In this document: positions 53,163-64,000 of the stretch, in pieces | How positions within the stretch are numbered: the stretch's first letter is position 1 | How the letters are laid out: each line of letters begins with the position of its first letter | NCBI GenBank assembly: GCA_021405325.1 | Contig: QWII01000072.1 | Span: 51,408 to 115,407 of the forward strand | Direction of reading: 5' to 3' | DNA length: 64,000 nt | Source: Caldilinea sp. CFX5 | Lineage (GTDB): Bacteria > Chloroflexota > Anaerolineae > Caldilineales > Caldilineaceae | Notes under the pieces: model-generated | The model's database searches: none | Told to the model about the DNA's origin: nothing | Seen by the model: the letters and a program-made list of their open reading frames with translations, nothing else | Position numbers and translations under genes: made by a program

Positions 53163-56100
53163 TTACTCGGTCTCAAATCCCTGCGTGATAAATTTTAATG
53201 TGCGGCTATTCTCCGTCACGGTACGCACAACCTGATCCGGCGCACCACTTGGAATCTCCGCTTCAATTTCCAGCGTTACCTTGACCTTAGCCCCCACCAG
53301 GCCGGCCAGATGGGCAATCACCTCGGCGGCAATGTTCCCTGCTTCCATGCCGACGCGTGTTGGATTCAGGTTCACTGTTCCATAAAAACGCTTTGGCACC
53401 GCCGGGCCGGCAGGGATGCCGGCGCTCCCAGGGGTGCTTCCGGGAACGCCGGCATCCCTGCCGGCTGGACTTTTCCCTGGAATCGCTGTTTCGGGTGTAC
53501 GCGGGACGCCAACTTGCTCAATGGTGTGACCATTGTTCGTTACCGCGGTTGTGCTGGCGGCGGCAACAGCCGCTGTGGTCACTGCCGCCTCGGCCTCCTG
53601 TTGTTTAAGCGCTGCCGCCGGACGCACCAGCAATCCATGCTGATTATCAGCGGTGATATTGAGGTGTTGTCCGCTACGCAAGCCACGATAGCGCCCACTA
53701 TCGGCGTCAAAGCTGTCGGCATAGGCAAAGGATTCCTGCGGCCACAAGAGCAGCCCCAGCCCTTCCCGCACCGCTGCCAACAACACACTGGCATCACGCA
53801 GGCGGGGCAAGTAGGGATATTGGGCAAAGTCCTCGATCAACTGCTTGATCGACACGGCGTCACCCCGCCACAGCGGCACACGATCCATCTCCTGGCGCAA
53901 CACCGTGCCGGCCAGCGCCGTCGCCAAGAGGTCATCATTGCGCAGCTTCTTGCTGGCGCGCACGGCCAGGGCATCCTGACCGGTCAGCCGTGCAACCTGC
54001 CATTCAACCGGCTTCTGGGGTGCGTGCTGAATCGGCGTTAAGAGCCACTGGTACGCTTCCGGCAGGCGCGCCGTCACCGCACCGTCGGCGCTGTGGCGTT
54101 GGGTCTCGGCCTGTTTCACCTGATGGGGCGAAAGATCGAGCAGATCTTTGTCATCCAGGATCGACGCCCAGGCCAGATAGCGGCGCAGCGCCTCATCCAG
54201 ATCTTGCAGCCGCGCCTTGTCAACCGCCAGAAAGACCAGCGTATTGCGGAAGAGCCGCGGCGCATGGCCCCGACTCTCCAAGATCGCCTTGGCCGCCTGT
54301 TCGGCGGGATTGTTCGGCTCTTTGCTGTAGGGATGCTCACTGCCTAGCACCACCAGCCGGGCATCGAGATCATCGGCCACGTCGCTGCTGCTTTGGGGCA
54401 GCGGATGCACCCGGCTGAAATCCCCTTTGCGGCTCTCCTTGAGATCGGCGCGCACCCGCTTGTCCAGTTCACGGAGGACGGCATCGGCGTCGCGCTTCAG
54501 TTGTTCGGCCCGATCTTCGGCCAGTTTGGTTACGGTGGGCTGGGTGGAATACCAGTAGCGGGGACCATCCTGGTAGAGATAGGTGGCCGCCGTCGCCAGC
54601 CGGCGCAGGGCATCGCCAAAGACCGCCGGCGATTCGCCCGGCATGACACAGCCCAGCTTGACCCGCCGATCTTCCAGACCCCGATTGGCCGCCGTGGCCG
54701 TGGGCGCAGAGCCAAGATAGATGGTGCGCGCCACCCGGCGGGTGGCGGCATATTTACCCAGATTCGGCACTTCGCCATCAATGCGCAGGGGCAGGGCATT
54801 TGGCCCATCGACATCTTTTTCCAAGACCGGCACCCAGTTGTCGGAAAGGTAGCGGGTCAACTCAAATTGGACGCGCGGGTCATCAATGGCGATGTTGGCC
54901 GGCAGGATGAGCGGGTTGCGATCCCCCTTCTCCCACAAGCTATGGATTACGGCGGCCATGAGGCGCAGCACCCCGCGCGTGCGCTGGAATTTCACCAGCG
55001 TTGACCAGTCGGTGTAGAGGCGGTCAAAGACTTCGGGGTGGATGGGATAGGCGGCGCGCAGCCGTTTTTCATAGTCACTGTCGCGACATTCGGGGGGAAA
55101 CTCCTGATGCTGGGTGCGGTAGAGATCATAGAAGGCGCGGGCGACGGTGTCGCGCGCCAGAAATTGACTCTGCTCAATCAGCGGTTCAAAGAGCCGCCGC
55201 CGCACAATCTCAAAGCCCTCTTCGGCGCTGGCTGGTCGCCACGAGGCTTCGACCCGGCCAATGGCGTTGCGCAAGCGATCGAGCGCGGCGCGTCCTCGTT
55301 CGCCGCCTACTTCCACATCATCGCCGCCGGTATGGGTGGAGCGGGTATGGGGCGAACCGGCGGTGTCCGAAGCGGGCAGACTGATGACCAGCAGACAGGC
55401 TTGGGCCAGCTTGGCCGACTCGGTGAGCGCCTGGGCAAAGGTAAAGTGGGTCTCAAAAGCGCCGGCGGGCAGCAGGTGCTGATCATGGAGTTGACGGGCA
55501 TAGGCCACCCACTCATCGATCAGAATCAAGACCGGGCCATAGGCGTTGAACAACTCGCGCAGCACATCGCCCGGACTGGTGGCATGTTCATCATCGGCCT
55601 GGATGCGGCTAAAGGCCCGTTTGGCTTCACTCAGGCCGCCGGCCGCAAAGCCCAACTGCCAGGCCAACTCCCCCCACAAGGTGCGCACCACCGTCCCATC
55701 GGCCTTGACACTCGGATTGCCCGGCGAAATCTTATTGCCTACTAATACGACGCGGCGAACAGCCGGCAGGATGCCGGCGCTCCCGGTGGCGTCCCTGGGA
55801 GCGCCGGCATCCTGCCGGCTGTTCGCTTCTTTCAACACCCCTTCAATGCCCAGCAACTCCGTCGGCTTCACCCCCGAAAAGAGATGATAGAGCGCCAACA
55901 TCGAGTGGGTTTTGCCGCCGCCAAAGTTGGTCTGCAACTGCACCACCGGGTCGCCCCCCTGGCCGGTCAAGCGCTGCACGGCATTGACCAGCAGTCCTTG
56001 CAAACTTTCGGTGAGATAGGTGCGCCGGAAAAATTCCACCGGGTTGCGATACTCGTCGCTGCCCTCGCCCAGATGGACCTGCCAGAGATCGGCGGCAAAT

Positions 56101-56666
56101 TCGGCCTGTTGATAGCGCCCGCTGGCGACATCGCGGTGTGGATTGACCACCTCGCGCCAGGGCTTGAGCGCGCCGGTCACCTGGCTTTCAATGGCCGTGC
56201 CGGCGCTACGCCGTTTTTCGTTGCGCACCTGTTCATCAAAGCGCACGCGCAGCAGCTCCATCTTGAGCTTTTCCACCTCATCCCCCTGAGGCGCGGCAAT
56301 GGCGCTGAGCAGGCGACCGGCCGAGTCGAGGGCGCGATAGGCGTTGTCGGTGGAGAAGGCTTCTTGATGCGCCCACTTGTTGCGCACCTCGCGCAATTCG
56401 CTGACCAACGAGCGTTCGGCATGGCCCAAGGTCTTGCGGAAGACCTCATTCCACTGATCCCACATCATGCGCAGCAGCAGCGCAATGTCCAGGTGGGGTT
56501 CGGCCTGCCCTTCGGGCCAGCTCAGTTCATTGCGCCAGGTGGCGGTGACCTGGGTGATCCAATATTTGCCATATTGGGCGCTCAACTCGCGCTCGACAAA
56601 GGGGCGCAACCCCTCCTTGAGCAGATCCATGGCCCGCCCGACCCGGTCATAATTCGTTATCGCCAT
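53163..56666 (-). CDS. DUF499 ATPase with N-terminal Swt1-like HEPN domain
   Basis: 1167 residues from ATG 56666 (GAGGTG upstream). Residues 1-110 match Swt1-type HEPN (NYDRVGRAMDLLKEGLRPFV) and keep the R-x4-H motif RNKWAH (about 95-100) of HEPN RNases. The DUF499 ATPase follows: Walker A NFGGGKTHS (about 247-255) and Walker B LILIDEW (about 380-386). In-frame palindromic insertions add a SRQDAGAPRDATGSAG segment (about 283-300) and a SPAGRDAGVPGS...GSAGIPAG segment near the C-terminus. DUF499 proteins pair with DUF1156 methylases in predicted anti-phage loci. Separated from its methylase partner by a RAYT and REP arrays. Confidence 0.85.
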   Translation of the reverse strand: MAITNYDRVGRAMDLLKEGLRPFVERELSAQYGKYWITQVTATWRNELSWPEGQAEPHLDIALLLRMMWDQWNEVFRKTLGHAERSLVSELREVRNKWAHQEAFSTDNAYRALDSAGRLLSAIAAPQGDEVEKLKMELLRVRFDEQVRNEKRRSAGTAIESQVTGALKPWREVVNPHRDVASGRYQQAEFAADLWQVHLGEGSDEYRNPVEFFRRTYLTESLQGLLVNAVQRLTGQGGDPVVQLQTNFGGGKTHSMLALYHLFSGVKPTELLGIEGVLKEANSRQDAGAPRDATGSAGILPAVRRVVLVGNKISPGNPSVKADGTVVRTLWGELAWQLGFAAGGLSEAKRAFSRIQADDEHATSPGDVLRELFNAYGPVLILIDEWVAYARQLHDQHLLPAGAFETHFTFAQALTESAKLAQACLLVISLPASDTAGSPHTRSTHTGGDDVEVGGERGRAALDRLRNAIGRVEASWRPASAEEGFEIVRRRLFEPLIEQSQFLARDTVARAFYDLYRTQHQEFPPECRDSDYEKRLRAAYPIHPEVFDRLYTDWSTLVKFQRTRGVLRLMAAVIHSLWEKGDRNPLILPANIAIDDPRVQFELTRYLSDNWVPVLEKDVDGPNALPLRIDGEVPNLGKYAATRRVARTIYLGSAPTATAANRGLEDRRVKLGCVMPGESPAVFGDALRRLATAATYLYQDGPRYWYSTQPTVTKLAEDRAEQLKRDADAVLRELDKRVRADLKESRKGDFSRVHPLPQSSSDVADDLDARLVVLGSEHPYSKEPNNPAEQAAKAILESRGHAPRLFRNTLVFLAVDKARLQDLDEALRRYLAWASILDDKDLLDLSPHQVKQAETQRHSADGAVTARLPEAYQWLLTPIQHAPQKPVEWQVARLTGQDALAVRASKKLRNDDLLATALAGTVLRQEMDRVPLWRGDAVSIKQLIEDFAQYPYLPRLRDASVLLAAVREGLGLLLWPQESFAYADSFDADSGRYRGLRSGQHLNITADNQHGLLVRPAAALKQQEAEAAVTTAAVAAASTTAVTNNGHTIEQVGVPRTPETAIPGKSPAGRDAGVPGSTPGSAGIPAGPAVPKRFYGTVNLNPTRVGMEAGNIAAEVIAHLAGLVGAKVKVTLEIEAEIPSGAPDQVVRTVTENSRTLKFITQGFETE
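53406..53466. repeat. Family-2 palindrome inside the DUF499 gene (3' part)
   Basis: GCCGGCAGGGATGCCGGCGC near the left and GCCGGCATCCCTGCCGGC on the right form an inverted pair flanking AGGGGTGCTTCCGG. It is in frame and encodes AGRDAGVPGS and GSAGIPAG in a linker before the C-terminal domain. Confidence 0.85.
55755..55826. repeat. Family-2 palindrome inside the DUF499 gene (ATPase domain)
   Basis: Perfect 30-bp arms (55755-55784 and 55797-55826) around a 12-nt loop. In frame; it encodes the NSRQDAGAPRDATGSAGILP insertion between the Walker A region and the strand RRVVLVGNKISPG. Confidence 0.92.
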
Positions 56667-56707
56667 CAAAACACCTCACTTCATTCTCACTTCATACAAG
56701 CACACCC

Positions 56708-56928
56708 GTAGGTCATCGCCTCCGGCGTGACAGCCTCTGTAGGTCACCGCCTCCGGCGTGACAGCCTCTGTAGGTCACCGCCTCCGGCGTGACAGCTTCT
56801 GTAGGTCATCGCCTCCGGCGTGACAGCTTCTGTAGGTCATCGCCTCCGGCGTGACAGCCTCTGTAGGTCACCGCCTCCGGCGTGACAGCTTCACAAACAC
56901 CCGTAGCTCATCGCCTCCGGCATGACAC
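56708..56928. repeat. REP array upstream of RAYT gene end (31-bp period)
   Basis: Six tandem elements start with GTAG at 56708, 56739, 56770, 56801, 56832 and 56863 (period 31), with a diverged seventh at 56903. Each reads GTAG followed by GTCA-t-CGCC-TCC-GGCG-TGAC, a hairpin with one bulged base. This GTAG-plus-bulged-hairpin form is that of REPs recognised by RAYT enzymes. Confidence 0.92.
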
Positions 56929-56947
56929 AATTCATCCAACAACCTTC

Positions 56948-57469
56948 TCACTCCACATCGCCAATCTGGCAAGCCGTAAGTGCATCAGGCAACGACCACC
57001 CCCACCCATCAGGGTAAGCCCCCCGTTGTTTCCAAGTCAGAAAACTACTATGCGGCCAATCTTCGGGACGGGTGACATACCCATGCTTCACCGGGTTATA
57101 ATGGATATAATGGAGATGGTTCGCAAAGTCCTCTTCATCCCGGATAATGTGGTCATAGAAACGTTTCTGCCAAAACTTCATGCTGCCGGTAATCCCCAGT
57201 CGCTGTTTATAACTATAGGTAAAATAGGACTTGGCGGAATGCATGATTTGACTGAAATTACTGGCGCCGGTTGGCCGCAGCAACAGATGCATATGATCCC
57301 AGAGAAAAACATAGCCAATCATGTCAAAAGGATGCAGTTTTTGGGTGTTGCGTAGCGTTGACCGAAAGAGTTCCAAGTAAGTTTCATTCGCAAAGATCGG
57401 TTCGCGCAAGTTGACAACGTTGGTGATGAAGACAATCGCATTGGGTATATAATAACGCCGAAAATTCAT
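56948..57469 (-). CDS. REP-associated tyrosine transposase (RAYT, Y1 family)
   Basis: 173 residues. HMH (His59, His61, in LWDHMHLLLRP) is the HUH-type metal motif. FWQKRFYDHIIRDEEDF (about 99-115) and HYIHYNPVKHGYVTRPEDWP (about 120-139) are RAYT signatures; a conserved Tyr in this region would attack DNA. RAYTs are single-copy, domesticated relatives of IS200/IS605 transposases that act on REP hairpins with a 5' GTAG. Here the gene is flanked on both sides by such elements. Intact, with the full family length. It separates the DUF499 and DUF1156 genes. Confidence 0.93.
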   Translation of the reverse strand: MNFRRYYIPNAIVFITNVVNLREPIFANETYLELFRSTLRNTQKLHPFDMIGYVFLWDHMHLLLRPTGASNFSQIMHSAKSYFTYSYKQRLGITGSMKFWQKRFYDHIIRDEEDFANHLHYIHYNPVKHGYVTRPEDWPHSSFLTWKQRGAYPDGWGWSLPDALTACQIGDVE

Positions 57470-57504
57470 GAATTATCATTCCAATTCCATTGGTTGTCAC
57501 ACCC

Positions 57505-57934
57505 GTAGGTCATCGCCTCCGGCGTGACAAGTTTGCATTAGCACATCGATTTGTCACACCCGTAGGTCATCGCCTCCGGCGTGACACGTTTGCATTAACG
57601 CATCGATTTGTCACGCCCGTAGGTCATCGCCTCCGGCGTGACACGTTTGCATTAACGCATCGGTTTGTCACACCCGTAGGTCATCGCCTTTGGCGTGACA
57701 CGTTTGCATTAGCACATCGGTTTGTCACGCCCGTAGGTCATCGCCTCTGGCGTGACAAGTTTGCATTAACGCATCGATTTGTCACGCCCGTAGGTCATCG
57801 CCTCCGGCGTGACAAGTTTGGATTAACACATCGATTTGTCACGCCGGAGGCGATGACCTACCATGAAGCTGTCACGCCGGAGGCGATGACCTACGGGTGT
57901 TTGTGAAGCTGTCACGCCGGAGGCGATGACCTAC
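57505..57934. repeat. REP array on the other side of the RAYT gene (57-bp period)
   Basis: Six direct REPs with GTAG at 57505, 57562, 57619, 57676, 57733 and 57790 (exact period 57, because the TTTGCATTARC spacers are repeated too), then three inverted copies ending CTAC at 57861, 57894 and 57934. The last inverted GTAG supplies the TAG stop codon of the DUF1156 gene. The array is open in one frame by virtue of 57 = 3 x 19. Confidence 0.93.
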
Positions 57935-60915
57935 GCAAACAAACGCGGTTGTTCGGCTGCAGAGGGCGTCGCCTGTTTGGCCTCTTCCGCCAGGTGCAGG
58001 ATCTCCGGCCAGCTTTGGACGAGGCTGTTGTAGGCCAGCGCTTCCTGCGCCCGTTTGCGCCGTTCACAGAGGGTGTAGAGGCGGTAGGCCAGTTCACGGG
58101 CCGTTTCGGCGCGACTGCCCAAACCGGCCGCCAATGCCGCCGCCGCCCCTTCGCCGCCGGTATCCAGGGCGCGAATCAGGTGGTGAACCATCTCCCAGAC
58201 GGTGAGGCGGGCGTCGGTGGCGGGGTTCCAGTCGGCGGGCAGTTCGGCGGGACGCAGGAGGCGCACTCGTCCGGCCCGCGAGAGTACCAGCCCAGCCTCG
58301 ACCAAGCCTTGCATGGCGGTGTTCTTGGCTTTGGAGAGCGTTTCGGCGTCGCCAAAGGGGCCGTCGTTAAAGCCAAATTGTTCAAACCAGGCCAGCGCCC
58401 AGCGGCTGTCGGCGTCAAAATCGCCCTCCTGTTCGGCCAGCACTTCGTCCAGCGTCTGGTTGATCAGCGCCAGCGCCTCGCGCACGGAGAGGGCGCGACC
58501 GGCGGCGTCCAGCACTTTGGCGTAGCGGGTGTAGACCGCCATGCCGGGGCCAATCGCCGCCTGCGCCAGATCGACCGGCGCAATGTTGCCCCGCTGGAGA
58601 TGGGTGAGGGCGGTGGGCAGTTCCGCCCGCAGCGCACTGAGAAATTCGCGACGGGTGGCGGTGGGGGCGGTGGCGGGGCGTGGGCGACAGACGAGGATGA
58701 TGCTGGAGGCGAGAGCATTGTTACCGCTCCCGATCATGCGATTGCCGAGTTCGGTGCGCATCGGCCAAGTACCGCTCAATACAAGTCCAGCTTGAATAAC
58801 AGCCTCGAGAAAAGTTTCCCAGCCAGTAGAGGATGTGCCTGCACTTGCAGTCTCGGCTTGTTTGAAGGCATAGTAGATAGTTATAGGGAAATGTGGGTGT
58901 ACTTGTTCTGCCAAACGTTGCATGGCACGTGTCATACCATCAAGGAAAAAAGCCTCAGCTTCTAGTTTACTGCCATGACGATAAGGGGTTGCTATAAGTT
59001 CTTCAGCTTTAGGGGTAGCTAATGTAGAAAACACATTCGGTAAAATTGTTCGTAAACTACGGCGGAGCCATACGTAGAAGAAATCTGAGAGATCTGCGTA
59101 GCCTATATTATCGTAATAGGGTGGATCAGTAGAAACGATTTTATCTTTTGATATCCTTTGTACCGTTGCATCAACCTGTTCAGCTATGCCGAAGGTTGAA
59201 CCGTAACCACTTGCAACACCCTCAATACTTTCGGCTGTCCATTCTGCTGCCCCTGCAAAACTACCAGTACCATCGAGTAATGTATTTAATTCGGCAAAAT
59301 CCCAGGTCATAGGTATACTCTGCCGTGCAAATGTATTGCGTGTAGAATCTCTATCAGTAAACCACGTACAAATAGTTGAGCCTCTGTCTGCTAGCTTCGA
59401 CATTGAAAACGCTAAATACACCGCTACCGCATCCGCATACGCCGTTATGCCAACGCCACCAGCAGCAAGCTCGCGGTCATCGGCACTGGAAGCGCCGGCT
59501 TCCAGCTGGCTGCCGTCAGGATGACGGCGCTCCCAGGCTTGGGCATCGCGTAACACCTGCGCCCGCGCTTCCTGCACCAGATCGGAGAAGGTGGTTAATG
59601 CCACAAGTTGGCGCGGGGTGAAGAGGTCGCCAAACTTGGTAAGCCCGTAACTTAGTGTCCAGAAATTCCTGGGATCATCTGGTAACGGCGTTTCTGGCTT
59701 CCATGTTGGTTCTGCTGTTTGCGCAATGGCTTCCATCTCCGATGTAGGTGAAAGATAAATCCGTCCGCGCTCACCCTCGGTAACAATGGCCATCAGGCGC
59801 GTTCCCATACGACCAGCGACACCTTCAGCCTTGATATAATCACCGGAAATTGGTGCACCAGACATAACACAGCGGAAATTTGCCCCTCGCGCCAACTTGG
59901 TGCCGTCCTTGGCCGTTTCTGGTGGCCTGGGAGCGCCGGCATCCCTGCCGGCAGTTTTAACGACAAAACGATAGCGATCCCCCGCAATCACCGGCTCCAC
60001 CCACGCTTCCTTGCCCGTTTTGGTCGAGAGCATAAACGTAGACGCCAGCGGCACATCAACATGAGCAAAGGCGGGGTTGGGGCTTTTCACCGTGCGCGCC
60101 CAGAGCCAGGCAATGACGGTCAAATTTTGGATTTTAGATTTTGGATTTGCGATTTCGCTGGGGGTGGCGTGACGCCAGGCGCCGTCGGCTTCTTGGATAG
60201 CGGCGACGGTGGGGTAGAGGTGGCCGATGCGCTTTTCGGCTTCGTCGCGCATCCACTGGCCGTAATAGCGCACATCGGCGGCCAACCCCTGCGCGCCGCG
60301 CCATGTTTGAGGAATGAGCCTGGGCGCGCCACCGGGAGCGCCGCCATCCCTGGCGGCAGGGTTGACCGGCGGACGACCGGCAAATTTGGGCGGAATTTCA
60401 ATCATCGCCTTGTTGATCAAAACCGCCACCGGGTTGAGATCGCTGGCGTAACTTTCCAATCCCAAACGCTGCGCTTCCAAGGGTAACGAGCCGCCGCCGG
60501 CAAAGGGATCGTGAAAGGCGGGCAGTTTGTCGGGGTCGAAGAGGTGGGCCGGCAGGGATGCCGGCGCTCCCAGGGCGCAAGTGCGACGCCAGCTTTGCCA
60601 GATTTCGTCGCGGGCTTGTTGGAGGATGGTTTCATTGGTTGTGTTTTCCCAGAGCACCAATTGTTCGATCAGGCGGAAGAGTCGTTGGCGTTCCTGTTCC
60701 TGGGCCTCGGCGGTGGGGAAAAGGTCGGGGTGGCTGGAGGGGTCATCGACCAGTTGGGCAAAGATTACGGCGCGGGCAGCGGCCAGCGGTCGGCGCGCCC
60801 ACCACAAATGCAAGGTGGACGGGTGGCCGTGGCGGATCGACTTTTCACGGGCGCTGGCCGCGTTAATGGCATCCAGGGGGAGGGCGACTTCGATGAGTTT
60901 TTTGGGTTGGTTCAT
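57931..60915 (-). CDS. DUF1156 DNA methyltransferase
   Basis: 994 residues. N-terminal DUF1156 hallmark ([20 protein letters not shown], about 27-46). SAM-binding motif [13 protein letters not shown] (136-148) with SDLNPVA; catalytic DPPY (STDPPYYDN) near residue 597, the arrangement of amino-methyltransferases. In-frame family-2 palindromes encode LGAPASLP (~115), [12 protein letters not shown] (~187) and AGRDAGAP further on. The segment 58.79-59.45 kb is visibly AT-richer than the rest of the gene. Its TAG stop belongs to a REP. It likely modifies host DNA for the DUF499 partner. Confidence 0.87.
59925..59956. repeat. Family-2 palindrome inside the methylase gene (1)
   Basis: CCTGGGAGCGCCGGCATCCC then TGCCGGCAG. 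In frame; encodes [11 protein letters not shown]. Confidence 0.82.
60327..60361. repeat. Family-2 palindrome inside the methylase gene (2)
   Basis: GCGCCACCGGGAGCGCCGCC, then ATCCCTGGCGGCAGGG. In frame; encodes [13 protein letters not shown] in the loop after the SDLNPVA motif. Confidence 0.78.
60549..60580. repeat. Family-2 palindrome inside the methylase gene (3)
   Basis: GCCGGCAGGGATGCCGGCGC then TCCCAGGGCGC, opposite orientation to the two copies above. In frame; encodes [12 protein letters not shown] just before the SAM-binding motif. Confidence 0.8.
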
Positions 60916-60933
60916 AAATTTTAGCTATACTCG

Positions 60934-60971
60934 AATTGCGTTTAACGAAATGAATTGCGTCGAAATTGCGT
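60934..60971. promoter_or_regulatory. AATTGCGT direct repeats at the methylase promoter
   Basis: AATTGCGT at 60934, 60953 and 60964, within 20-55 bp upstream of the methylase ATG (minus strand). They would overlap a promoter there, so they look like operator sites. Confidence 0.5.
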
Positions 60972-61040
60972 ATTGTCGTACAGATAGTCTGCTGTCGCGT
61001 CAGTCCCACTCACCCTTTGCGCAAGTGGTTATCAACGTAA

Positions 61041-61100
61041 ATGCGCAAACAATGCGCAAATAAATGCGCAAACAATGCGTAACTCTTTGGCACATGCGCA
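61041..61100. promoter_or_regulatory. ATGCGCA iteron-like repeats upstream of the methylase gene
   Basis: ATGCGCA at 61041, 61052 and 61064, ATGCGT at 61075, and ATGCGCA again at 61094, next to a poly-T. The 11-12-nt spacing is one helical turn, as for a multimeric DNA-binding protein. It lies between the AlbA_2/HTH gene stop and the methylase start. Confidence 0.55.
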
Positions 61101-61109
61101 TTTTTTAAT

Positions 61110-62741
61110 CTAAGCGTTCTTCTGTTCCAAATACCAAAGCCCCCCGCGATTCTTACCAGCTAACCGGATTCTTCCTTCATCACGCAATTCGGTCAGGTAG
61201 AGTTGGATGGTGCGTCTGGCAACATGGGGCAGAACTAGTTGTAATTCATCTAAAGCACAACCATCAGGGGCGCGATATTCCAAATGTTTTACCAACAGCT
61301 CTTTGTTGGTCAATCGATCCAAGCCTTTCCGCCGTGTATAGGTAGCCGGTTGCCCTAGCGCATCATAGAGTGAACGAGAGAGAATATAATTTGCGCTGCG
61401 ACCACGACCAATTGTTTCAATAATACCCAAGTTAACCAGGCGTTTGAGCATGGGGCGTAAGTTTTCCGGCACGGTTCGTTCATGATGGATAGAATCGAGA
61501 ATCAAAAAATCATGGGTAGAAAAGCTTTGCAACTGTGCCTGTCCAATTCGCTCCAAAAAGCGAATAAAGGCCGGATTGCCCACCGTGCCATGCAGGGTCA
61601 GCCGCACATCATAGGCCGAAGTGCCTTGAAAATCGGGCAGCGGTTTACTCTGTCGAATACTGCGCTCAAACATCAGATTCATACCCTGACCCGATCGTTC
61701 AACCAGACCGCATTTGGCATAGGCTTCGGCCAGGCGGCGATTGCGCGGGTTTTGCTGATCGAGGATATTCTCCGTGGTCACCCCAGCAGGAAAGCCACCA
61801 GGGCTAACTACCTCCAAACGGCGGGCATACTGACGGACAAAGACCGAGCCGCCCAGTCGGTAATCACGATGGCAGACCGCATTGAGCACCGCCTCGCGAA
61901 TCACGGCTTCATCAAAGGTGGCAATCTCAAAGCGGAAAAGGCCATCCTGGTAGCTCTGCCGGTCATTGCGCAGGTTGATCCGTTCCCAGAGCAGATCATG
62001 AAAGAGCAGAAAGCCCAGGCGATACTCGGCCCGATCCTGCGCCGGCCCGGAGGCTTCCGAAGATCGATATTCAAAGATCACTTCCGCTTGTCCCAGCAAT
62101 CGCCCCAGCGCACGATGGGTGCCAAAAAGGAGCAGGGCCGCATAGGTAATGCCCCCGTCCACCAATAATTCGGCATCGGTCAGCAACTGTTCGTCGCTTA
62201 GGGTCAGCAAGCGTTGGTTGTTCGTCCTTTTGGCCCACAAGGAACGAAAGAGATCGATGGCGGCTGGATCCAGATCAGTGGGGCGCGCTTGCCCGCAGAT
62301 CTCCGCCGAAAAGTCACTATCGATTTCGGCATAAATCTGCCGCAACTGTTCATCGTTCATGCCCAGTAACGCGTCCCCTGCGCGCATCCAAAAGACACCT
62401 TTGTCGTTCCAGGCCGATCCGCGCAAACGTGCCGGGACGTGAACAATGAGTACACGTTGCTGCCCCTGATGAAAATACTCTTCCACCGGGATTCTGCGCT
62501 GTAGCCGATCATAAAGACCGGCCTCCGTCCGCCCCGGTTCGGCAAAGGCTTGTGTCCCCACCACTGTTCGTGGCCGCCTATCGGTTACGCCAAAGAGAAT
62601 CTTGCCGCCGCCCTCATTGGCTAAGGCCACACAGTACCGCACCAGTTCATCAAAATGGAAGTTGCTCTTTGCTTCTTTAAATTCGATCCGTGTACCCTCG
62701 GCGGCTGCCAGGTATGCCTGAAATTGTTCCGGTGTTGTCAT
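61110..62741 (-). CDS. AlbA_2 / HATPase_c_4 helix-turn-helix protein
   Basis: 543 residues. N-terminal AlbA_2 (Schlafen-type) domain: GTRIEFKEAKSNF, ANEGGGKILFGVTDRRP, and FHQGQQRVLIVHVPA. Middle GHKL-like ATPase segment with EAVIREAVLNAVCHRDY (about 279-295) and the C-terminal winged-helix-like region (DELQLVLPHVARRTIQLYLT). Such proteins are described as ATP-dependent DNA-binding or transcriptional regulators and recur in defence islands. Lies between the C2H2 gene (54 bp) and the methylase gene, same strand; likely regulator or effector of the cassette. Confidence 0.85.
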   Translation of the reverse strand: MTTPEQFQAYLAAAEGTRIEFKEAKSNFHFDELVRYCVALANEGGGKILFGVTDRRPRTVVGTQAFAEPGRTEAGLYDRLQRRIPVEEYFHQGQQRVLIVHVPARLRGSAWNDKGVFWMRAGDALLGMNDEQLRQIYAEIDSDFSAEICGQARPTDLDPAAIDLFRSLWAKRTNNQRLLTLSDEQLLTDAELLVDGGITYAALLLFGTHRALGRLLGQAEVIFEYRSSEASGPAQDRAEYRLGFLLFHDLLWERINLRNDRQSYQDGLFRFEIATFDEAVIREAVLNAVCHRDYRLGGSVFVRQYARRLEVVSPGGFPAGVTTENILDQQNPRNRRLAEAYAKCGLVERSGQGMNLMFERSIRQSKPLPDFQGTSAYDVRLTLHGTVGNPAFIRFLERIGQAQLQSFSTHDFLILDSIHHERTVPENLRPMLKRLVNLGIIETIGRGRSANYILSRSLYDALGQPATYTRRKGLDRLTNKELLVKHLEYRAPDGCALDELQLVLPHVARRTIQLYLTELRDEGRIRLAGKNRGGLWYLEQKNA

Positions 62742-62795
62742 GAAGGAATCAGTTCTCTCGTTAGTAGTTTAGTGGAATCGTTAAACACGCGCAAG

Positions 62796-63710
62796 TTAAT
62801 CAGTATCAGCATCATCGCTATAATCATCATACAGTGGCAAAGAGCCAAAGCGGCCATTCCCTTCACGGCGCGAAAGACCCACGTATTTGTCACCAAAGCG
62901 GCTTTCGTGAAAGGCTTGCTCAAACTCAGCCAGTTGCTGTTGCCTCGTTGTTGATTGCCGCTGTGATTGCTCATTTTGTTGCGGCGTCTTCTGTTTTACA
63001 ACCTTCGCCTCATGCGCTTGTGATGCATGTGTTGGATGAACCTTGCGCAGATGTTTTGCTAACCGCCGTTCACCAACAGCCACACCACAAACTGGACATG
63101 CGGTGAGCGGCTGGCTTGTCTTACCTGACTTGGCTGGCATTGCCGAACGCGTTTTCGTCGATGATTTACCAGATTTCGATTGTACATCCAGTTTGCCATG
63201 TGCATGTTTCATATGCCGCTTGATGTTTTCAGGTTGAAGCAGAACATGACAGTGTGGACAGACTATCTGTTTTGGTTTTGGTTGATGCATCTTGACGATG
63301 TGACGCTGGAGCCGATGCGCGTCCATGATTGCACCGCACTCGTTGCATTTTACCTTCCCTATAGAAAATCCTTCCCTGGGATTGAGCGATGGACTGGGAG
63401 AGTTGTGCGGTGACGGCATATTATCCATTGATGACTTTGGCATGAGAATCTTCACAGGGGGTAAATGCAGAGGATCTAGGTAACCCGCCGGCGTTGATTC
63501 TGGAATTTCATCGAGTTTGGGTGACGATACAGAAGGCGTTACATGGCTGTCCTTCTTGTTATCTTCTTGACCCACAGGGTTTGTTGCCTTGACGCCTATG
63601 TCGGTCAAGGCGTCGTTATTGACTGATCCCGTGCCACTTATATAGCCAAACTCATCCATCACATAATATGTATAATCATCGGGCTTTTGTTGTTTCTTGC
63701 GTTTCGTCAT
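62796..63710 (-). CDS. Bacterial protein with three C2H2-like zinc fingers
   Basis: 304 residues. Three evenly built fingers, each C-x2-C-x11-H-x4-H: Cys122/125-His137/142 (KCNECGAIMDAHRLQRHIVK), Cys151/154-His166/171 (CPHCHVLLQPENIKRHMKHA), Cys205/208-His220/225 (CPVCGVAVGERRLAKHLRKV). They are separated by Ser/Lys-rich linkers; the first 120 residues are disordered-looking and the last 80 Gln/Arg-rich, ending in an acidic DDYSDDADTD tail. Multi-finger C2H2 proteins are uncommon in bacteria. No match to Ros/MucR (single finger). First gene of the minus-strand defence-like cassette. Confidence 0.7.
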   Translation of the reverse strand: MTKRKKQQKPDDYTYYVMDEFGYISGTGSVNNDALTDIGVKATNPVGQEDNKKDSHVTPSVSSPKLDEIPESTPAGYLDPLHLPPVKILMPKSSMDNMPSPHNSPSPSLNPREGFSIGKVKCNECGAIMDAHRLQRHIVKMHQPKPKQIVCPHCHVLLQPENIKRHMKHAHGKLDVQSKSGKSSTKTRSAMPAKSGKTSQPLTACPVCGVAVGERRLAKHLRKVHPTHASQAHEAKVVKQKTPQQNEQSQRQSTTRQQQLAEFEQAFHESRFGDKYVGLSRREGNGRFGSLPLYDDYSDDADTD

Positions 63711-63786
63711 CGTCCCTCCAAGCCATAACTTATTTACAGAAAGCTCACACAGTCTTATCGTAATCGTCGTACAAGGGCCGTATAAC

Positions 63787-64000
63787 GTAGGTCAGCGCCT
63801 CCGGCGTGACAGGTTCATTAATCGGTTTGTCATGCCGGAGGCGCTGACCTACTTCTTGGCACCTGTCACGTCGGAGGCGCTGACCTACTTCTTGGCACCT
63901 GTCACGTCGGAGGCGCTGACCTACTTCTTGACACCTGTCACGCCGGAGGCGCTGACCTACTTCTTGACACCTGTCACGCCGGAGGCGCTGACCTACTTCT
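63787..64000. repeat. REP variant array running off the right edge (36-bp period)
   Basis: One direct element with GTAG at 63787, then five inverted ones ending CTAC at 63852, 63888, 63924, 63960 and 63996 (period 36). The hairpin differs from the 57-kb REPs by G for T at the bulge (GTCA-g-CGCC-TCC-GGCG-TGAC). It continues past the window. Confidence 0.9.

Follow-up and report, generated by a model that had tools for sequence, protein, structure and literature searches.

A probable Type-1 BREX-related (Hma) defence operon with an added Schlafen-like gene in Caldilinea sp. CFX5

The window analysed here, a stretch of 64,000 nucleotides from Caldilinea sp. CFX5 (assembly GCA_021405325.1, contig QWII01000072.1, positions 51,408 to 115,407 of the forward strand), carries towards its right edge a set of minus-strand genes that read, 5′ to 3′ and from right to left, as a C2H2-like protein, a protein with AlbA_2 and HATPase_c_4 domains (hereafter the Schlafen protein), a DUF1156 methylase (HmaB), a tyrosine transposase of the type associated with repetitive extragenic palindromic (REP) sequences (REP-associated tyrosine transposase, RAYT), and a HEPN–DUF499 ATPase (HmaC). 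We consider it very probable that the locus represents the 3′ portion of a restriction-modification (R-M)-like defence operon of the kind named Hma and later renamed Type-1 bacteriophage exclusion (BREX)-related (BR). It comprises most of the known Hma system together with an added Schlafen RNase-like gene; the remaining component, the helicase HmaA, is expected beyond the edge of the window.

HmaC matches the Pfam families HEPN_Swt1 (E 2.1e-41) and DUF499 (E 4.3e-24), and scores 1114 bits with the PADLOC profile PDLC00662 across residues 167–1166, whereas HmaB matches DUF1156 (E 2e-32) and scores 1502 bits with PDLC00660 across residues 2–982; both profiles are covered almost fully. An initial annotation, made from the sequence, had described four same-strand genes interrupted by a RAYT as a candidate defence locus of the helicase–methylase–ATPase type. 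The list of open reading frames (ORFs) and the Pfam and NCBIfam matches confirm the genes and their coordinates (Table 1), and the two PADLOC scores support the type. It had also suggested the HEPN domain as a possible effector, and the conservation of its motif makes a role as an RNase effector plausible. A search with HmaC scored at least 7999 proteins, all of them matching; among the 120 listed, which include the window's own, the precomputed domains HEPN_Swt1 and DUF499 are both present in 120, the HEPN motif RNxWAH (RNKWAH in the window) is kept in 119 (in P0102, Q replaces H), the Walker A motif (GGGKT) occurs in all 120, and Walker B is kept in 119. Sequence searches of solved structures gave no match to HmaC (profile search, E ≤ 0.01) or to HmaB (phmmer, E ≤ 0.1).

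HmaB contains the motifs FAGGG at residue 138 and DPPY at residue 597. Since DPPY in such enzymes goes with N6-adenine methylation, the two motifs together lead us to predict that HmaB is an N6-adenine methylase. The published descriptions have shifted on this point. The 2021 PADLOC paper that named Hma termed HmaB a 5-methylcytosine methyltransferase (PMC8565338), the later PADLOC library labels it a DNA-adenine methylase, and the 2026 paper in Nucleic Acids Research that introduced the name Type-1 BR treats it as an N6-methylase (PMC12839542).

Table 1. Features of the defence locus and its surroundings, in window coordinates
Feature	Position	Strand	Basis
HmaC: Swt1-like HEPN (residues 12-124) fused to DUF499 AAA+ ATPase	53163..56669	-	Pfam, PADLOC PDLC00662, conserved motifs
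REP repeat array on HmaC side of RAYT, 7 units	56708..56924	n/a	22-mer search, ≤4 substitutions
RAYT between HmaB and HmaC; outside the defence system	56948..57469	-	NCBIfam NF047646, motifs
REP repeat array on HmaB side of RAYT, 9 units, the final unit abutting the HmaB end	57505..57934	n/a	22-mer search
HmaB: predicted DUF1156 N6-adenine DNA methyltransferase	57931..60915	-	Pfam, PADLOC PDLC00660, motifs
AT-rich spacer, 22-nt direct repeat with AATGCGCAAA units	60916..61109	n/a	sequence scans
Schlafen (AlbA_2) RNase-like domain with HATPase_c_4; predicted accessory effector	61110..62741	-	Pfam, residue conservation
Three-finger C2H2-like orphan with conserved GRFGSLPLYDDY tail; probably outside the system	62796..63710	-	Pfam, relatives, alignment
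REP units up to window edge, and short frame ending RPLYDDYDKTV	63745..64000	n/a	ORF list, REP search

The locus was compared with the best 80 HmaC-relative loci of a longer list, which include L001, from a Litorilinea metagenome-assembled genome whose HmaC is 78% identical to that of the window. HmaA was sought with a model built from the sequences of four loci; PADLOC scores the HmaA proteins of two of these, L020 and L017, at 1708 and 1689 bits, and that of L001 at 1667.5 bits. HmaA is typically an SNF2 helicase that ends in a nuclease, and in L020 and L001 the protein carries, by Pfam, SNF2 plus a C-terminal NOV_C domain. Counting was confined to the 47 loci in which the DNA upstream of HmaC reaches at least 8.5 kb (the other 33 have less). 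Of the 47, 44 contain HmaB and 42 have a same-strand HmaA upstream.

The protein encoded upstream of HmaB matches HATPase_c_4 (E 1.9e-14) and SLFN_AlbA_2 (E 1.9e-12; 48.2 bits against a cut-off of 25.3), and its sole PADLOC matches are weak ones to Argonaute-associated models (best 30.9 bits). Among 120 listed members, its own sequence included, E15 and E20 are found in 120 and D54 in 114, with N in the other 6. The E-x4-E spacing of E15 and E20 is matched by E205 and E210 of SLFN13, a mammalian protein with demonstrated RNase activity whose E205A and E210A variants are inactive (PMC5862951). Judged by motif spacing, E15, E20, and D54 would correspond to E205, E210, and D248 of SLFN13, and the window protein may likewise cleave RNA. 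The 2026 paper describes a Schlafen–kinase–winged helix-turn-helix (wHTH) accessory (PMC12839542), and by analogy with that architecture we presume a wHTH at the C-terminal end of the window protein, a segment for which Pfam gave no match.

Nine Type-1 loci carry this Schlafen family, and all nine have HmaA upstream of the family member (L014, L017, L020, L029, L065, L168, L171, L175, and L177). The two genes overlap by 4 bp in seven of them, a sign of co-expression; in the other two, L014 and L177, further ORFs stand between them. HmaC falls past the contig end in L168, and L171 and L175 contain only part of the HmaA frame. The order seen in the window, Schlafen–HmaB–HmaC, is that of the nine loci minus the first gene.

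The family is not confined to such loci. In samples of three phyla it was found in 2 of 400, 6 of 396, and 8 of 395 genomes (E ≤ 1e-120). Two of these 16 matches are genomes already used as anchors; the other 14 loci comprise three with Type-1 genes, three with more distant BR-like genes, and eight in which neither was seen in the DNA examined (one of them a contig of 3.5 kb). In all three distant BR-like loci (L165, L173, L176) the Schlafen gene sits between HmaB-like and HmaC-like genes. Nine ORFs from six of the eight remaining loci were scanned with Pfam, and in L166, L169, and L172 type I R-M genes, instead of Hma genes, adjoin the Schlafen gene or lie within about 2 kb of it. A tree of 21 members, in which L163 stands outside the context groups, mixes these contexts: its well-supported branches force at least four changes of the Type-1 label, and in 168 of 500 label shuffles the number of changes required is no higher than for the real labels. 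With contexts so mixed across the tree, co-inheritance of the Schlafen gene with Hma is unsupported. A search among plasmids at E 1e-80 gave no match to the protein.

The occurrence of the family away from Hma genes, in three cases beside or close to type I R-M genes, and the mixing of contexts in the tree would both fit a gene that is an independent defence unit and a mere neighbour of Hma. We rate this as possible but rather unlikely, given the 4-bp overlap with the end of HmaA in seven of the nine Type-1 loci and the tight linkage of the Schlafen accessory to BREX/BR core loci reported for at least 1017 taxa (PMC12839542); it would in any case be compatible with our explanation of the core. 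In our interpretation the Schlafen gene travels as an accessory among several R-M-like systems (type I R-M, Type-1 Hma, and other BR-like loci); it is not a fixed part of Hma, and it recurs at the HmaA–HmaB junction.

That no helicase is visible here, as the initial annotation had stated, holds for the window: tblastn with four HmaA sequences found no HmaA-type helicase in the 64 kb (best E 0.13), which rules out one elsewhere in the window. A helicase directly downstream of HmaC is ruled out as well, that position being taken on the same strand by a response regulator (53036–52278; Pfam) and, past it, by an ORF (52288–50885) whose sequence reads as a histidine kinase. Among the 80 loci a single one, L014, has an HmaA-like match above 100 bits downstream of HmaC; it is weak (165 bits), and the locus also carries an upstream HmaA. 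The failure to see a helicase is nevertheless weak evidence, because the window stops 3,085 bp upstream of HmaB. In the relatives the gap between HmaA and HmaB is 1,963 bp at the median and exceeds 3,085 bp in 12 of 43, and the window is therefore unable to show that the helicase is absent. The further suggestion, that the helicase has given way to the AlbA_2 and C2H2 genes, finds no support: since all nine comparable loci have HmaA in addition to the Schlafen gene, and upstream of it, the Schlafen gene is not a helicase substitute.

One could still picture an Hma variant without a helicase, in which HmaB and HmaC act with the Schlafen protein, and perhaps with the C2H2 protein as sensor, leaving the RNase domains as sole effectors. 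Besides the tblastn result, such a variant would suit the presence of the AlbA_2 and C2H2 genes at the end where the helicase is expected, and five relatives of 47 (L013, L026, L031, L047, L073) show no HmaA in the stretch of DNA examined. Of these, L026 and L073 also show no HmaB, and in L031 HmaB lies at the limit of the examined stretch, some 9 kb upstream. The presence of HmaA in the other 42 relatives and in every locus with this Schlafen family, and the shortness of the upstream DNA in the window relative to many known gaps, make us regard a helicase-less variant as improbable. We favour instead a window-edge effect, with HmaA probably, though not certainly, lying just past base 64000; the locus is then largely ordinary, the helicase most likely being only just out of sight.

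The RAYT and its REP arrays fill the space between HmaB and HmaC and explain its length of 1,262 bp. The RAYT matches Y1_Tnp in Pfam (E 1.6e-08) and the NCBIfam model NF047646 for REP-associated tyrosine transposases (141.7 bits against a cut-off of 80), and it has the motifs HMH and Y-x2-YNP. Between 56,708 and the right edge lie 22 of the window's 23 REP-like units, seven on the HmaC side, nine on the HmaB side, and six at the edge, and they are dense at 56708–57934, where they flank the intact-looking RAYT, and at 63787–64000. RAYT-like stretches also occur in 6 of the 80 loci. In three they lie between HmaB and HmaC (L001, 9471–9776; L021, 3103–3648; L044, 9301–9675), with weak scores of 43–58 bits; the one in L021 is confirmed by Pfam.

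Both junctions of the operon accept varied cargo. Ten HmaA–HmaB and ten HmaB–HmaC ORFs, part of a longer cargo list, were scanned with Pfam, and the matches include a GmrSD restriction enzyme (L010), DUF4062 with HATPase_c_4 (L032), AAA_21/AAA_15 ATPases (L070, L025, L054, L004, L011, L013, L039, L038, and L042, and more weakly L071), and the RAYT of L021. L008 has a dual-OB protein and L059 a protein kinase; the cargo ORFs of L046 and L001 have no Pfam match. Five loci (L023, L027, L028, L030, L051) have an ORF of about 1400 residues between HmaA and HmaB, and the only one scanned, that of L023, gave a weak match to a Sacsin domain.

A RAYT with REP arrays that splits HmaB from HmaC, and REP units upstream of the C2H2 gene too, might indicate a decaying locus, its operon broken by the RAYT/REP insertion and the acquisition of the C2H2 gene and the system dead. 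This, too, we find improbable. The reading frames are open across the full length of the domains and retain the catalytic motifs, and a gap of 1,262 bp is not unusual, because more than 400 bp separate the two genes in 27 of 64 relatives.

The C2H2 gene matches zf-Di19 in Pfam (E 1.7e-07), and three C-x2-C...H...H units can be discerned by eye. Its association with the methylase–ATPase pair, which the initial annotation had taken as a point that could decide the matter, was found in 0 of the 80 HmaC loci (tblastn, E 1e-5), and a scan without a positive control found the gene in 0 of 46 genomes of the order to which L001 belongs. Twelve relatives at E ≤ 1e-3 and two weaker ones (P0242–P0255, the protein itself excluded) came from a search that detects only proteins sharing exact 5-residue words. 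In the alignment of these 15 members the tail (RE..GRFGSLPLYDDY) is better conserved than the fingers. They form a rare C2H2-like finger family with the strongly conserved C-terminal tail GRFGSLPLYDDYG(D/E)E, of which two members have the variant GRFGSHPSHDGF. The tail of the window protein has no Pfam match, and its letter strings had no match in the literature searched. A profile of the family gave seven weak matches in 301 genomes of the phylum, and the only one aligning with the tail (L181) proved on inspection to be without the tail motif; in viral contigs 40 stretches fit the search pattern and no relative was found. The gene has a G+C content of 0.48 (0.449 at third positions), compared with 0.624 (0.725) for HmaC. 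Beside the REP units at the edge, a minus-strand frame at 63745–63790 that ends in RPLYDDYDKTV may be what is left of another gene bearing this tail. We hold this tentatively because a blastn search for a duplication at the DNA level gave nothing meaningful. The C2H2 gene is probably a passenger, no link to Hma having been found, and we regard it and the RAYT with its REP arrays as insertions or neighbours, not as parts of the system. A helicase-free Hma that acts only through RNA cleavage by its HEPN and Schlafen domains, with the C2H2-tail protein as sensor or adaptor, is improbable.

The AT-rich gap upstream of HmaB contains a 22-nt direct repeat at 61038–61082 with three exact AATGCGCAAA units, as well as terminator-like hairpins. 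With up to one mismatch allowed, the window contains no excess of AATGCGCAAA (7 copies against 8.69 expected), and only the clustering of the three exact copies stands out. A scan for promoters and terminators gave nothing decisive, with 11 promoter-like matches against 5.9 expected and 6 terminator-like matches against 12.3 expected. The spacer between the Schlafen gene and HmaB could possibly be a promoter, an operator, an attenuator, or a weak terminator.

Several observations weigh against assigning the locus to an Hma operon. The HmaA of this locus is not among the genes of the window, and its position in the contig is one that we infer; the five relatives without a visible HmaA also count here. 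The NCBIfam antiphage equivalogs for DUF499 and DUF1156 proteins (NF042962 and NF042963) score far under their cut-offs (158.6 against 1200 and 104.7 against 1000, respectively), and these models may describe a different subtype. The pairing of an AlbA_2 gene with the methylase and ATPase, put forward at the outset, does recur, yet at ≥53% identity this Schlafen family is found in just 5 of the 80 HmaC loci; five others have weak Schlafen matches of 49–58 bits. Finally, the C2H2 gene sets the Schlafen gene apart from the expected HmaA, breaking the usual 4-bp overlap, the RAYT separates HmaB from HmaC, and two terminator-like hairpins stand between the Schlafen gene and HmaB, such matches being fewer in the region than in shuffled sequence; the genes may therefore not share one transcript.

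Taking the locus as part of a Type-1 BR operon in the order HmaA helicase-nuclease, Schlafen protein, HmaB methylase, and HmaC HEPN-ATPase, the published model suggests how it might work. HmaB would mark self DNA by N6-adenine methylation, and the DUF499 ATPase and the SNF2 helicase-nuclease would recognise and degrade unmodified DNA. The HEPN domain of HmaC and, separately, the Schlafen protein could serve as back-up RNases that halt the infected cell when restriction fails. According to the 2026 paper, an experiment reported elsewhere has confirmed that HmaA defends against phage (PMC12839542). Our analysis corrects the tempting reading of the locus as a variant without a helicase, which most likely reflects the edge of the window. 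The recurrence of the Schlafen gene at the HmaA–HmaB junction and in several R-M-like contexts also provides a testable case for Schlafen proteins guarding restriction systems.

With published Hma/Type-1 BR systems the locus shares the HEPN domain at the N-terminus of the DUF499 ATPase, a fusion described for a subset of Type-1 BR (PMC12839542), as well as the DUF1156 N6-methylase, the order of HmaB and HmaC, and a Schlafen accessory beside the core. It differs in that HmaA is not in the window, a RAYT with REP sequences lies between HmaB and HmaC, and a C2H2 gene stands upstream of the Schlafen gene; in the available text of the 2026 paper the words C2H2 and RAYT have 0 occurrences each (PMC12839542). 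The Schlafen protein resembles the published Schlafen–kinase–wHTH accessory in the domain order tested, its closeness to the core, and its acidic residues, and it differs from SLFN13 in that RNase activity has been demonstrated for the mammalian protein, whereas the window family is known from sequence. Type-3 BREX has homologous counterparts to the three core proteins (PMC12839542), but the only Pfam matches of the window ATPase are DUF499 and HEPN_Swt1, with DUF6079 (BrxC type) unmatched. One close description is older than the names Hma and BR: a 2013 survey of HEPN domains reported fusions of a Swt1-like HEPN domain with a DUF499 ATPase in R-M operons with an SNF2 helicase (PMC3710099), and the Ava_2192-type HEPN(Swt1/Abi2)-AAA+(DUF499) proteins described there share both the fusion and this context with the locus and differ from it in nothing essential.

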